Source: an uncultured Bacilli bacterium (lineage in GTDB: Bacteria > Bacillota_I > Bacilli_A > RFN20 > CAG-826). Taken from it: 64,000 nucleotides of DNA. Position 1 is the first letter of the stretch. Each line of letters begins with the position of its first letter. Under the pieces are notes generated by a model. It searched no databases. It was not told the origin of the DNA and saw only the letters and a list, made by a program, of their open reading frames with translations. The stretch spans positions 135,149-199,148 of the forward strand of contig CALVHN010000001.1 in NCBI GenBank assembly GCA_944327845.1. Reading direction: 5' to 3'. Below, in pieces: positions 14,297 through 64,000 of this stretch. The position numbers and the translations under genes were made by a program.

Positions 14297-16885
14297 ATGA
14301 GTCTTGATAAGCGTTATGATTTTAAAAAAGTCGAAGAGGGAAAATACGAAAATTGGAAATCAAAAGGATATTTTGAAGCTGGAGATAAATCAAAAAATAA
14401 GTTTTCAATGGTAATTCCCCCTCCAAATGTTACCGGTAAGTTACATATCGGACATTCTATTGATACAACAATTCAAGATATTACTTGTAGATATAAAAAA
14501 GCAAAGGGATTTGATGTTTTATATTTACCAGGTTGTGACCATGCAGGAATAGCTACTCAAGCAAAAGTTGATGCTAAATTAAAAGAACAAGGAATTTCTC
14601 GTTTTGATATTGGAAGAGAAGCTTTTTTGAAAGAAGCTTATAAGTGGAAAGATGAATACCATGCTTTAATTCATAAACAATGGGCAAAAATGGGTTTGAT
14701 GCTTGATTATTCTCGTGAAAGATTCACTCTTGATGAAGGATTCCAACATGCAGTATATCTTGTATTTAAAAAGCTTTATGATAGTGGGTTAATTTATCGT
14801 GGTGAAAGAATAGTTAATTATGATCCTCAGATGAGAACTGCTTTAAGTAATGTTGAAGTAATATATAAAAAAGATAAAGGCTATTTTTACTATTTTAAAT
14901 ATAGATTTGTTGATAATCCTGCAACTTATTTAACTGTAGCAACTACTCGACCTGAAACAATGTTTGGAGATACATGTTTAGTTGTAAATCCTAATGACGA
15001 TAGATATAGAGATATAATTGGAAAAATGGTGATTAATCCAGCAAATAATGAAAAAATTCCTGTCATCGCTGATGAATATGTTGATATTGAATTTGGAACT
15101 GGTGTTATGAAATGTACCCCAGCTCATGACCCAAATGATTATTTATTAGGTAAAAAATATAATATGAAAAATATTTTAGTCATGAATGTTGATGGAACAA
15201 TGAATGAGAACGCTGGTAAATATAAAGGATTAACTAGAGAAAAATGTCGTGACACTTTAGTTAATGATATTAAGAATGATGATAATTTAATTAAAATTGA
15301 AGAAATTATCCACGATGTCGGTCACTCTGAAAGAAGTGATGCTGTTGTTGAACCTATTTTAAGCAAACAATGGTTTATTAAAATGAAACCTCTTGCTCAA
15401 AGTGTTTTAGAAAATCAAAAAACAAATAATAAAGTTAATTTCTTCCCAAAACGTTTTGAAAAAACATTAATTAATTGGATGGAAAAATGTGACGATTGGT
15501 GTATCTCTCGTCAATTATGGTGGGGCCATAGAATACCTGTTTATTACAATAAAACCACTAATAAACTACTAATATCTGAAAAAATCCCTGATAATAGTGG
15601 AGATTGGGTTCAAGATGAAGATGTTTTAGACACATGGTTTTCAAGCGCACTATGGCCTTTTGTTACATTAGGATGGCCAAATAATACCGATGATTTAAAG
15701 AGGTATTATCCTTTAGATTGCTTAATTACTGGCTATGATATTATCTTCTTCTGGGTTGCAAGAATGTATTTTCAAGGTTTACATTTTACCAATTCACGTC
15801 CATTTAAGGATGTTGTAATTCATGGTTTAATTAGAGATAAACTCGGAAGAAAAATGTCAAAAACTCTTGGAAATGGTGTTGATCCAATTGATGTAATTAA
15901 TAATTATGGTGTTGATTCATTAAGATATTTTCTTGCAACAACTGCATCACCTGGACTTGATATGAGGTATGATGAAGAAAAAGTAAAAAGTGCAAGCAAT
16001 TACTTAAATAAAATTTGGAATAGTGCTCGTTTTATCTTAATGAAATATGAAGAAAGCAATATTTCTGAACTTAAGATTGATTTTAATAAACTTAATTTAA
16101 TCGATAAATATATTCTTTCAAAATTAGAAGAAACCATACAATCAGTTACTAAGAAAATGGATTGCTACGAATATGGTGTTGCTAGCAATATTTTATATAA
16201 TTTTGTTTATGATGATTTTTGTTCTTTTTATATTGAAATGAGTAAAGTTTCTCTTTCATCATCTGATTCCTTAAAAAATACATTAAGTGTTTTAATGTAT
16301 GTCTTAAAAGCGATTATTATGATGATCTATCCATTTTCACCATTTATCAGTGAAGAAATTTATTTAAATCTTCCTGAACATAAAGATTCAATTATGTTAG
16401 AAGATTATCCTGAATTTAATAATGATTATGTTTTTGAAGATTCGATTAATAAAGTTGAACTTTTAAGAAAGTCTATTGATTTTATTCGTTCTTATAAGGT
16501 TGAAAATAATCTTGTGCCTAACACTAAAATTGATTTAATAATTAATGGAAATGATTTTGATAAATCTCTAGTTAGCTATTTAAGTCGTTTTGCTTTTGCA
16601 AATAAGATAGAATTTAATAAACAATCTTCAAGCTCAATATTTTTTGCAGAAAATGATTTTGTTCTTTATATAGAAAATAATTTAAATAAAGATGAAATTT
16701 TTGAGACTTTAAATAAGCAAAAAGAATTTTTACTTTCTGAAATTGAAAGAAGTAAAAAAATTCTTTCTAATGAAACATTCCTTAAAAAAGCTCCTGAACA
16801 AAAAGTAAATCTTGAAAAAGAAAAATATGAAAAATATACTAAGGAACTTTCGTTATTAGAAGAAAAAATAAATAAATTAAAATAA
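14297..16885 (+). CDS. valS: Valine-tRNA ligase
   Basis: Class I synthetase for tRNA-Val, with an editing domain. The HIGH motif is in PPPNVTGKLHIGHSIDTT (around residue 49). KMSKT is at about 518-522 within GRKMSKTLGNGVDP. Tryptophan-rich signatures ISRQLWWGHRIPV and DTWFSSALWPF are typical of ValRS. The C-terminus is a charged coiled coil (EKEKYEKYTKELSLLEEKINKLK region) that contacts tRNA. Length is 862 residues. The ATG at 14297 follows TAGGAGC. No T-box is present here, unlike ileS. The next gene has its own upstream element at about 16897. Confidence 0.97.
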   Translation: MSLDKRYDFKKVEEGKYENWKSKGYFEAGDKSKNKFSMVIPPPNVTGKLHIGHSIDTTIQDITCRYKKAKGFDVLYLPGCDHAGIATQAKVDAKLKEQGISRFDIGREAFLKEAYKWKDEYHALIHKQWAKMGLMLDYSRERFTLDEGFQHAVYLVFKKLYDSGLIYRGERIVNYDPQMRTALSNVEVIYKKDKGYFYYFKYRFVDNPATYLTVATTRPETMFGDTCLVVNPNDDRYRDIIGKMVINPANNEKIPVIADEYVDIEFGTGVMKCTPAHDPNDYLLGKKYNMKNILVMNVDGTMNENAGKYKGLTREKCRDTLVNDIKNDDNLIKIEEIIHDVGHSERSDAVVEPILSKQWFIKMKPLAQSVLENQKTNNKVNFFPKRFEKTLINWMEKCDDWCISRQLWWGHRIPVYYNKTTNKLLISEKIPDNSGDWVQDEDVLDTWFSSALWPFVTLGWPNNTDDLKRYYPLDCLITGYDIIFFWVARMYFQGLHFTNSRPFKDVVIHGLIRDKLGRKMSKTLGNGVDPIDVINNYGVDSLRYFLATTASPGLDMRYDEEKVKSASNYLNKIWNSARFILMKYEESNISELKIDFNKLNLIDKYILSKLEETIQSVTKKMDCYEYGVASNILYNFVYDDFCSFYIEMSKVSLSSSDSLKNTLSVLMYVLKAIIMMIYPFSPFISEEIYLNLPEHKDSIMLEDYPEFNNDYVFEDSINKVELLRKSIDFIRSYKVENNLVPNTKIDLIINGNDFDKSLVSYLSRFAFANKIEFNKQSSSSIFFAENDFVLYIENNLNKDEIFETLNKQKEFLLSEIERSKKILSNETFLKKAPEQKVNLEKEKYEKYTKELSLLEEKINKLK

Positions 16886-16921: not shown

Positions 16922-16936
16922 ATGAAAGGAGGAGAT

Positions 16937-17119
16937 ATGGAAAAAGTACCATTAACTAATGAAGAATTAAATAACATTAAACCTGGTGAAGCGATTACTT
17001 TAGCCACAGTTATGGCTATCCTTGCTATAGCAATTGTATCAGTAATTGTTTATAAGTTGTTTATAACCGGGGATGGAAAAGTGAAATTGCCTGGTGGTTA
17101 TCAATTTGAGTGGAAATGA
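16937..17119 (+). CDS. Small single-pass membrane peptide with double-glycine-leader-like N-terminus
   Basis: Sixty residues; I do not recognise a named family. The N-terminus PLTNEELNNIKPG (residues 5-17) looks like a double-glycine secretion leader (consensus L..EEL..I.GG) with Pro-Gly in place of Gly-Gly. A strong hydrophobic helix follows at about 19-42 (ITLATVMAILAIAIVSVIVY), then a short tail with LPGGYQFEWK. It could be a bacteriocin-like or signalling peptide, or simply a small membrane protein. I chose ATG 16937 because AAAGGAGGAG precedes it closely; an ATG at 16922 adds five residues but overlaps that site. The stop overlaps the radC start (ATGA), so the two are translationally coupled. 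No dedicated exporter is visible nearby. Confidence 0.7.
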   Translation: MEKVPLTNEELNNIKPGEAITLATVMAILAIAIVSVIVYKLFITGDGKVKLPGGYQFEWK

Positions 17120-17790
17120 CAATTCAAATTAAAGATTTAGATGAATCTTCTAGGCCAAGAGAATTAGCTTTAAATAATGGAATTGATAGTTTATCTAATG
17201 TTAATTTATTAGCTCTAATTTTAGGAAGTGGAATTAAAGGAAAATCGGTAATTGATATATCAAATGAAATATTAAAAAAATATTCAAATTTGTCCGAGCT
17301 TACTAATGTTAATTATAATGAATTAAAAAAGATAAAAGGTCTTTCCAACGCCCAATGTTTAAAGTTAATCGCTTGCTTTGAATTGTGCAAAAGAATTATA
17401 AGAAATGTTAATGAATTAAATAGAAGTATTGAACCAAGAAATATATATAAAGAATTTATTAATGAGTTCGGTATTAATAAAAATGAAACTTTATATCTAT
17501 ACATTTATAAAAATAATATAAGAATTTCCAAAAATAAAATTGTCACAAGTAGCAAAATTTCTGTTATTTTGAGTTTTGATGATATATCAGAAAGAATATC
17601 TCAAAATAAAGGAGATTCATTTTTAATTGTTCATACTCATTTTTCTGAAAATTCTGAACCTTCAAACGAAGACATTCTAGCGACTAATCAATTGATTGAA
17701 ATTTCCAAAAATTTGAAATGTAATTTAATCGATCATATTATTGTTTCTAAATTCAATTATTTTAGCTTTAAAGAGAATGGTTTGATTTAA
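17116..17790 (+). CDS. radC: RadC/UPF0758 family JAB-domain protein
   Basis: The N-terminal helix-hairpin-helix region (about residues 30-85, ILGSGIKGKS ... IKGLSNAQ) is followed by a JAMM metalloprotease-like domain with HTHFSENSEPSNED, matching the H-x-H...S-x-x-D metal site. The family usually reads HNHPSG here, so this copy is divergent around it. Function is unsettled. The old link to recombinational repair is doubtful, but radC belongs to late competence regulons in streptococci. The start is ATG 17116, overlapping the stop of the peptide gene; a GTG six bases earlier is not needed. Length is 224 residues. Expression is probably driven by the shared block at 16897. Confidence 0.9.
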   Translation: MTIQIKDLDESSRPRELALNNGIDSLSNVNLLALILGSGIKGKSVIDISNEILKKYSNLSELTNVNYNELKKIKGLSNAQCLKLIACFELCKRIIRNVNELNRSIEPRNIYKEFINEFGINKNETLYLYIYKNNIRISKNKIVTSSKISVILSFDDISERISQNKGDSFLIVHTHFSENSEPSNEDILATNQLIEISKNLKCNLIDHIIVSKFNYFSFKENGLI

Positions 17791-17935: not shown

Positions 17936-18247
17936 ATGTACGCAATAATTTTAAGCGGCGGAAAGCAACTTAAAGTTGAAGTAGGACAAAAAATCTATGT
18001 AGAAAAATTAAATAATGTCGAAGTAGGTTCTGAATATACTTTCAACGATGTTCTTTTAATTGGCGGAGATAAAATGATAAACGGAAATCCTACAGTTAAA
18101 GGTGCAAGTGTCGTTGCTACTGTTGAAAAACAAGGATTAGGTAAGAAAATTCGTGTTTTTAAATACAAACCTAAATCTAATTATCGTAAGACTCAAGGTC
18201 ATAGACAACCTTATACTTGTTTATTAATCAAGAGTATTAATGCATAA
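17936..18247 (+). CDS. rplU: Large ribosomal subunit protein bL21
   Basis: The 103-residue protein begins [18 protein letters not shown] and carries the conserved C-terminal block [19 protein letters not shown] typical of bL21. It binds 23S rRNA in the 50S subunit. A GGAGG site (17924-17928) precedes the ATG. It is the first gene of an operon with prp and rpmA, the standard Firmicutes arrangement, and sits behind the L21 leader. The stop TAA shares its last base with the ATG of prp. Confidence 0.98.
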
Positions 18248-62978: not shown

Positions 62979-63434
62979 TTAAATCTCCTTTGGTGGCAAA
63001 ATTTTATCTTGTAAAGAAAACATTATTTCTTCTTGTTCCTTTGTTTGATGATCATAGCCTAAAAGATGTAAAAGGCCATGTACAAAAAGAAAACAAAGTT
63101 CCCTATCTAAAGTATTACCATATTTTTTTGCATTTGATGATGCTACATCATAACAAATATAAATTTCTCCTAAATCCAACGGAAATCCATTCAAATTAAT
63201 ATTTTTTTCTTTAATATCGTCTAAATAGGCAAAAGATATGACATCTGTTTTACGATCGATATTTCTATATTTTTTATTGATTTCATGAATTTTTTTAACT
63301 GAAACAAAAGTAACTGACATTGTGACATTTTCATTTAAATTAAGCAATTTTAAAGTCTTTTTAAATAATTCGTTATATATAGTTTCAAATTTACTAACGT
63401 TTTTGCGTGTCTTGTTACTAATTAATAAAAGCAT
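62979..63434 (-). CDS. ybeY: Endoribonuclease YbeY
   Basis: Zinc-dependent RNase for 16S rRNA maturation and ribosome quality control. The metal motif is HGLLHLLGYDH (HGxLHLxGYDH). The upstream DRKTDVISFAY and LDLGEIYIC blocks are conserved. Length is 151 residues. The cdd start is 4 bases downstream of its stop. The ATG at 63434 is the first in-frame start and has no obvious ribosome site. Confidence 0.95.
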   Translation of the reverse strand: MLLLISNKTRKNVSKFETIYNELFKKTLKLLNLNENVTMSVTFVSVKKIHEINKKYRNIDRKTDVISFAYLDDIKEKNINLNGFPLDLGEIYICYDVASSNAKKYGNTLDRELCFLFVHGLLHLLGYDHQTKEQEEIMFSLQDKILPPKEI

Positions 63435-63469: not shown

Positions 63470-64000
63470 TTAAATACCAAAATAATTACGATAAATACAT
63501 TTATAAAATAGTGATTTTTTATTTTTATTAATTTGATCTAACAAATTAGAAAAAATATCACTTAGAAGATAATAAGAGAAAACATGGAATAATAAGAAAT
63601 TTAAACTAATATTATTGCTAAACCCTGAATAAAATAAAGATATAACAATTATTAAAGCTAACATTATGTACTTTTTTAAATTAAGTAAATTAATTAGCTG
63701 ATATGTTCTTTCATTAATTGAAAGGTATAAACTCTTTTTATTATTTACTTTGCTTTCTTCATTTATCAATGATTCATTCTTTAAAATTTCAAACTCTTTA
63801 TTTTTTGTAAGATGATTAAAAATGAAATAAAAGATAAGATTAGCAGTAATTATAATTAAAATATTTAAAATATTTAGATAAGAATTAATTGCAAGAGCAA
63901 CAAAAATTAATAATAAAGTTAAAACTGAAGAAATAATTTGGATTGGTATTAGAAAAAATGAAGATTTATATTTTGAAATATTTTGATAAAAGGTTTTTTC
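63470..64000 (-). CDS. Polytopic membrane protein, unrecognised (C-terminal part)
   Basis: The frame stays open to the window edge, so the N-terminus lies beyond 64000. About 176 residues are visible with four hydrophobic segments: FFLIPIQIISSVLTLLLIFV, an adjacent one around NILNILIIITANLIFYFIF, then after a polar Lys/Glu/Asn loop KYIMLALIIVISLFYSG and FLLFHVFSYYLLSDIF. A TTG at 63769 in the loop is not a likely start. In Bacillus the gene before ybeY is a 7TM-HD phosphodiesterase or phoH, but I see no HD motif. I do not recognise the family. The stop is 35 bases before ybeY. Confidence 0.6.
   Translation of the reverse strand, partial: EKTFYQNISKYKSSFFLIPIQIISSVLTLLLIFVALAINSYLNILNILIIITANLIFYFIFNHLTKNKEFEILKNESLINEESKVNNKKSLYLSINERTYQLINLLNLKKYIMLALIIVISLFYSGFSNNISLNFLLFHVFSYYLLSDIFSNLLDQINKNKKSLFYKCIYRNYFGI

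Follow-up and report, generated by a model that had tools for sequence, protein, structure and literature searches.

A core peptide with a double-glycine-type leader and its candidate C39 partner protein in a lineage of Bacilli

Results

Gene content of the locus

The window, i.e., the whole stretch of 64,000 nucleotides analysed here, comes from an uncultured Bacilli bacterium and carries between valS and radC an open reading frame of 60 codons with an ATG start and a TGA stop at 17117-17119 (Table 1). The initial annotation had described this stop as overlapping the start of radC, and the TGA and the radC ATG (17116-17118) indeed overlap as ATGA. The tail of the predicted mature part is basic and contains the motif PGGxxFxW. 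At the far edge of the window lies the 3' end of a C39 peptidase gene of 421 codons (contig 198618-199883, i.e., 63470-64735 in window numbering), which sits between ybeY and rpsU and whose peptidase domain is found 265 bases beyond the window edge. In the following, f denotes families, G genomes (with G000 as the peptide's own genome), and L loci.

Table 1. Features of the window around the peptide gene and the C39 gene, with strand and basis.
Feature	Position	Strand	Basis or remark
valS, upstream neighbour	14297..16885	+	detected in 46/51 loci
ribosome binding site AAGGAGGAG	16926..16934	+	sequence; strong, 5' of peptide ATG
pre-peptide gene, 60 aa	16937..17119	+	sequence; single copy in own genome
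leader, 17 codons, Pro-Gly end; L-12, T-11, E-8, L-7, I-4, G-1	16937..16987	+	alignment A1
predicted mature peptide, 43 codons: hydrophobic helix, YKLF, basic tail, LPGGYQFEWK	16988..17116	+	A1, A3; cleavage inferred
radC	17116..17790	+	start overlaps peptide stop
rplU	17936..18247	+	also adjoins related peptides in mycoplasma-like genomes
ybeY	62979..63434	-	adjoins C39 gene in most groups read
only C39 peptidase gene of genome, 3' part	63470..64000	-	C39 search, locus reading

The peptide is a conserved core gene

With the peptide as protein query, we detected it in 183 of the 196 genomes of its family, including 114 of 116 good ones, and always with one match per genome except for two in G111. 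A sample of the class contained it in all 45 family genomes and all 11 others of the order (56/56), and no genome of the family or order is found among the misses listed for that sample. The median dN/dS of the peptide is 0.30 across 94 pairs and falls to 0.02-0.19 among the nine pairs closest to each other in DNA (pS 0.13-0.37). The mature part is under purifying selection, and this selection together with the conservation rules out a chance ORF, so that the 60-residue frame proposed from the single sequence is genuine. A C39 match is present in 182 of the 196 family genomes and in 55 of the 56 order genomes of the class sample. Ten family genomes have the peptide without a detected C39 protein and nine show the reverse, with several incomplete assemblies among them; G005, at 95% completeness, combines a GG leader with no C39 match. 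We take the peptide, which has homologues across the family and no paralogue in its own genome, to be a vertically inherited core-genome gene that is kept along with its probable cutting enzyme. It remains nameless in Pfam and NCBIfam, where it has no match up to E 10, as well as in the titles and abstracts of the open-licence literature, where we found no paper describing it.

The leader keeps a double-glycine register

An alignment of 41 members of the family (A1) shows leaders of 15-22 residues, mostly 15 or 17, in which position -12 is hydrophobic in 41/41 rows, -7 in 39/41 (typically L or M), and -4 in 29/41. Glutamate stands at -8 in 37/41 rows and glycine at -1 in all of them. The positions -12, -7, and -4 are those recognised by the C39 domain according to the available text of PMC10885120. 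The register of a double-glycine leader, which had been suspected from the single sequence, is thus kept across the alignment. Position -2 is more variable (P in 16, V in 11, G in 6, C in 5, T in 2, and A in 1 of the 41 rows), and the window peptide has PG rather than GG, GA, or GS at -2/-1. As to whether this Pro-Gly is Gly-Gly in relatives, GG occupies -2/-1 in 6/41 rows of A1, in 9/11 leadered rows from f20 and f25, and in 12/15 rows of the mycoplasma-like alignment A4 described below.

The mature part has 43 residues in 34/41 rows, and no row of A1 deviates at G17, P52, G54, or F57. On average, the leader has a net charge of -0.6, the six residues at the mature N-terminus one of -1.0, and the C-terminal tail one of +2.0. 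Under the positive-inside rule this pattern suggests an N-out, C-in topology, weakly as charge alone does.

The candidate partner is a C39 protein without an ATPase domain

The own genome has exactly one C39 peptidase match (73.3 bits), and in the 421-aa protein the C39 domain is accompanied by a membrane domain. Among 17 aligned core C39 proteins of 389-450 aa (A2), the catalytic triad C39, H115, and D131 is invariant (17/17), and no nucleotide-binding domain was found in the 421-aa protein or any of the 17 rows, four of which were run against Pfam. The structural model of the protein (pLDDT 84) has PCAT1 as its best Foldseek match (8vp5, E 2.8e-15, TMq 0.62), and when solved structures were searched with a profile, a double-glycine protease domain (6mpz) and PCAT1 were returned. 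The expectation that a C39 exporter should exist elsewhere in the genome was therefore borne out for the peptidase and not for the exporter, as the candidate partner lacks the ATPase domain that a complete exporter would have.

Most of the family C39 matches listed lie in frames of about 400 codons. A phylogenetic tree unites the core C39 proteins of f1, f3, and f5 in one clade (99/97) and separates them from 26 accessory exporters of about 725 aa from the same family, which have a clade of their own (100/100). Such second C39 exporters of about 725 aa were seen in some family genomes (L053-L078) and probably act as accessory exporters of peptides. Because the deep branches of the C39 tree lack resolution, common descent of the C39 proteins across families rests on synteny. 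The protein encoded before ybeY is a full exporter in f20 (before ybeY-cdd-era in all six read), lacks the nucleotide-binding domain in f1, f3, and f5, and is down to 116-127 or 170-171 aa in the families f25 and f2. At one locus (L101, in G141), valS-peptide-radC and rpmA-C39-ybeY share a single stretch. Among ORFs of at least 55 aa at four f1 loci (L093, L094, L101, and L106), we noticed no other GG peptide beside the core C39 gene.

The peptide outlives radC

In 51 loci read, radC adjoins the peptide 33 times, rplU follows the peptide with no radC between them 15 times, and three loci show neither pattern within the stretch read. All 15 loci without radC belong to genus-mates of the window, and 15/15 genus-mates read there keep the peptide; a search for radC in five mycoplasma-like genomes (f11 and f22) likewise gave 0/5. 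The coupling of the peptide to radC that the initial annotation had emphasised is therefore not upheld. The peptide outlives radC, and since it is kept at the 15 loci from which radC is absent, valS-peptide-(radC)-rplU is an old synteny.

In the RadC protein of the window the JAB motif is altered, reading HTHFSEN where L003 has HNHPSG, and the protein scores below both NCBIfam RadC cut-offs; it is perhaps heading for the loss seen in genus-mates. Separately, genus-mates at L087-L090 carry a Tad-like locus in which an assembly ATPase is accompanied by two membrane proteins and by a small pilin-like ORF of the MSEIKGQ type.

Relatives in f20 and f25 include leaderless peptides

The peptide also turns up in further families of the class, both with A1 and with a broader peptide alignment of 30 rows (A3). 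At E <= 0.01, A3 matches 109 of 395 genomes, the weakest of these matches being chance or leader-only. Among the matches listed, the 16 f20 genomes matching A3 are the same 16 that match the C39 profile. The f20 peptides mostly have a canonical GG leader and often stand before radC-mreC-mreD, and by eye the f20 exporters have Walker A and B with a degenerate signature. Compared on mature parts only, the profiles of f20/f25 and A1 match with P 5e-12.

In f25, the short protein before ybeY (G421, G537, and G463) was matched by the C39 profile PF03412 with 43 bits in G421 and 32 bits in G537, while in G463 the match at the ybeY place reached 19.5 bits, below the cut-off, and a 22.4-bit match lies elsewhere in the genome. 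Six other f25 genomes (G319, G385, G517, G527, G546, and G551) encode the peptide without a leader in open frames of 41-45 codons that begin about where the mature form would begin. PF03412 found no C39 protein in any of these six, compared with three of the four leadered f25 genomes (G421, G537, and G463, one of them weak); Fisher's exact test gives about 0.03, which is indicative only as the genomes are related. The fourth leadered genome, G475, keeps a leader with the site GR and has no C39 protein, and G537 has a C39 protein together with the site GK.

Several further arrangements were observed in these and other families. At L167 and L172 (f20), a tandem of three GG peptides from the family lies upstream of radC, and in f20/f25 (L132, L134, L135, L167, L169, and others) a membrane protein of 120-145 aa, SPOR-like by eye, lies between peptide and radC. 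C39 exporters of f17 (L187, L190-L192, and L269-L271) have adjacent GG peptides of 45-57 aa that are of a different kind, often with a double Arg and a Cys near the end, and adjoin an rpsU-like gene.

A related family in mycoplasma-like genomes

Genomes of f11 and f22 have TGA inside conserved frames (TGA = Trp). A3 produced few and weak matches there (best 9.4e-7), of which those in G357 and G523 lie directly before rplU-rpmA, i.e., in the place that the peptide takes in the window's genus without radC. Inspection of the region before rplU revealed further GG peptides in mycoplasma-like genomes. The resulting 15-row profile A4, whose own 15 rows match by construction, finds related peptides in 17/18 f11 and 19/19 f22 genomes, i.e., in 36 of 37 mycoplasma-like genomes, syn3A not being among them. 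A4 matched 0/33 genomes of 14 other families (f9, f10, f12-f16, f18, f19, f21, f23, and f26-f28), 0/2 of f20, and not the own genome, with weak matches in 2/5 genomes of f17 and in the one of f29. Two f22 matches of A3 (G260 and G497) were rejected as lying inside a longer protein; copies in both genomes were found later with A4.

The full-length match of A4 to A3 (7e-11) is owed in part to the shared leader. When only mature parts are compared, f22 matches A3 with 4.7e-6 and f11 matches f22 with 5.6e-6; the direct match of f11 to A3 is weak (P 0.0044, against 0.12-0.8 for shuffled and 0.018 for reversed controls).

PF03412 matched all f11 and f22 genomes tested (19 of f22 and 6 of f11), and in the loci read the C39 gene lies beside ybeY and era (gene names by eye). 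Of the 17 mycoplasma-like proteins that passed the filter for this comparison, which removed five further loci, 12 have ATPase motifs; in the other five (L199, L200, L206, L225, and L224, the last without a regular Walker A) the motifs are missing or broken. According to PMC6609329, published in 2019, gene 0401 of syn3A is a C39 exporter with no identified double-glycine peptide and was tentatively linked to lipoate import; other mycoplasmas are there described as likewise lacking a candidate double-glycine peptide (citing Dirix 2004). In several f11 genomes the peptide is encoded between an rsmI-like gene and rplU, and a peptide is therefore predicted at that place in syn3A, where rpmA is 0499 (PMC6609329) and RsmI is 0504 (PMC4993169).

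Discussion

Comparison of the sequences brings out conservation of the peptide, its leader register, the catalytic triad and missing ATPase of the C39 protein, synteny, and a correlation between leader and C39 protein. On balance, we favour the reading that the peptide is a core membrane microprotein that depends on leader cleavage by the C39 protein and for which ATP-driven export is dispensable. The ORF would encode the pre-peptide of this vertically inherited microprotein, and the C39 cysteine peptidase would descend from a peptidase-containing ABC exporter (PCAT) by loss of the ATPase domain. It would bind the leader of 15-17 residues and cut after Gly(-1), freeing a 43-residue peptide that may stay in the membrane of the producing cell as one helix, probably with the N-terminus out and the basic tail and C-terminus in. 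Leader removal would be the step retained once powered secretion had become dispensable, and genomes that no longer have the peptidase would encode the peptide leaderless. Cleavage, topology, membrane residence, and a housekeeping role are what we infer here.

The order of the window has lost the ATPase, some f11 proteins show its decay, f25 has reduced the C39 protein to a small one, and leaderless peptides occur in genomes without C39; together, these points indicate that the essential step lies elsewhere than in powered export. That tiny genomes contain the peptide and that it is under purifying selection speaks more for a housekeeping function than for warfare. Nevertheless, f20 and many mycoplasma-like genomes keep full exporters, and export may be real there.

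Like PCAT1, LahT, and ComA, the C39 protein combines a C39 domain carrying a C/H/D triad with a PCAT1-like membrane domain, and the leader positions recognised in those systems (-12, -7, and -4) are the same here; unlike them, the window's lineage lacks the ATPase domain and has one putative core substrate. The peptide in turn resembles class II bacteriocins and ComC-type pheromones in its short leader, identical register, and small hydrophobic product, but it differs from them as a conserved core gene with no visible cluster or variable cargo, whose product can be encoded leaderless and whose -2 residue is mostly not Gly.

This resemblance underlies the strongest competitor, that the peptide is cut and exported as a secreted signal or bacteriocin with an ATPase acting in trans or export driven otherwise. 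Besides the GG-type leader, weak matches of 4/41 members (not including the window peptide) to the lactobin A/cerein 7B model TIGR03949 (best E 0.00027), matches of 2/41 members to the bacteriocin_sig model, the full exporters that f20 has at this locus, and the 12 mycoplasma-like proteins with intact ATPase motifs point in this direction. However, a single-copy core gene with a conserved mature sequence and no variable cargo, a C39 protein without ATPase in the window's lineage, and the persistence of leaderless peptides in genomes without C39 make secretion unlikely.

The leader-like segment could also be a mere amphipathic N-terminus, with the C39 protein serving a different substrate. The lack of Gly at -2 in most of the window's family and the imperfect pairing of peptide and C39 protein would fit, but we consider this quite improbable given the conserved register, the GG in relatives, the loss of the leader in six genomes without C39, and the lack of another GG peptide beside the core C39 gene at the four f1 loci inspected.

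A shade less probable still is a minimal pilin-like subunit of a Tad/Com-type machine in which C39 would replace the prepilin peptidase, as could be read from a Gly-ending leader with a hydrophobic helix directly after it and from the Tad-like locus of most genus-mates. The best T2SSE match in the own genome stays below the cut-off at 17.1 bits, the mature +1 residue is E and the pilin +5 Glu pattern is missing from the peptide, Tad-like loci already have their own small pilin-like ORF, and related peptides occur in mycoplasma-like genomes, too. Least probable of all is a functional partner of RadC translated along with it, as the overlapping or close radC in 33/51 loci and its recurrence in f20/f25 families are outweighed by the radC-less genus-mates that keep the peptide, the five f11/f22 genomes in which a search found no RadC, and the SPOR-like, nagB-like, lspA, and rplU genes that also take the neighbouring position.

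Returning to the membrane microprotein, the C39 protein 0401 of JCVI-syn3A has counterparts beside ybeY-era in the mycoplasma-like genomes studied here, and where PMC6609329 reported no GG-motif candidate, we find a GG peptide family in nearly all such genomes, a set to which syn3A does not belong. We therefore propose, tentatively and at slightly less than an even chance, that this family supplies the substrate so far missing for the core C39 protein in mycoplasmas and related Bacilli, perhaps with the minimal cell among them, and that repeated stripping of a PCAT (of its ATPase, then of its membrane domain, then of peptidase and leader together) yielded a leader peptidase that acts without ATP on one conserved membrane microprotein. 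A near-universal and partly syntenic candidate peptide makes the question of the mycoplasma C39 substrate directly testable. If the proposal is true, a secretion machine would have been reduced to a maturation protease, and a core membrane protein would be added to very small genomes.
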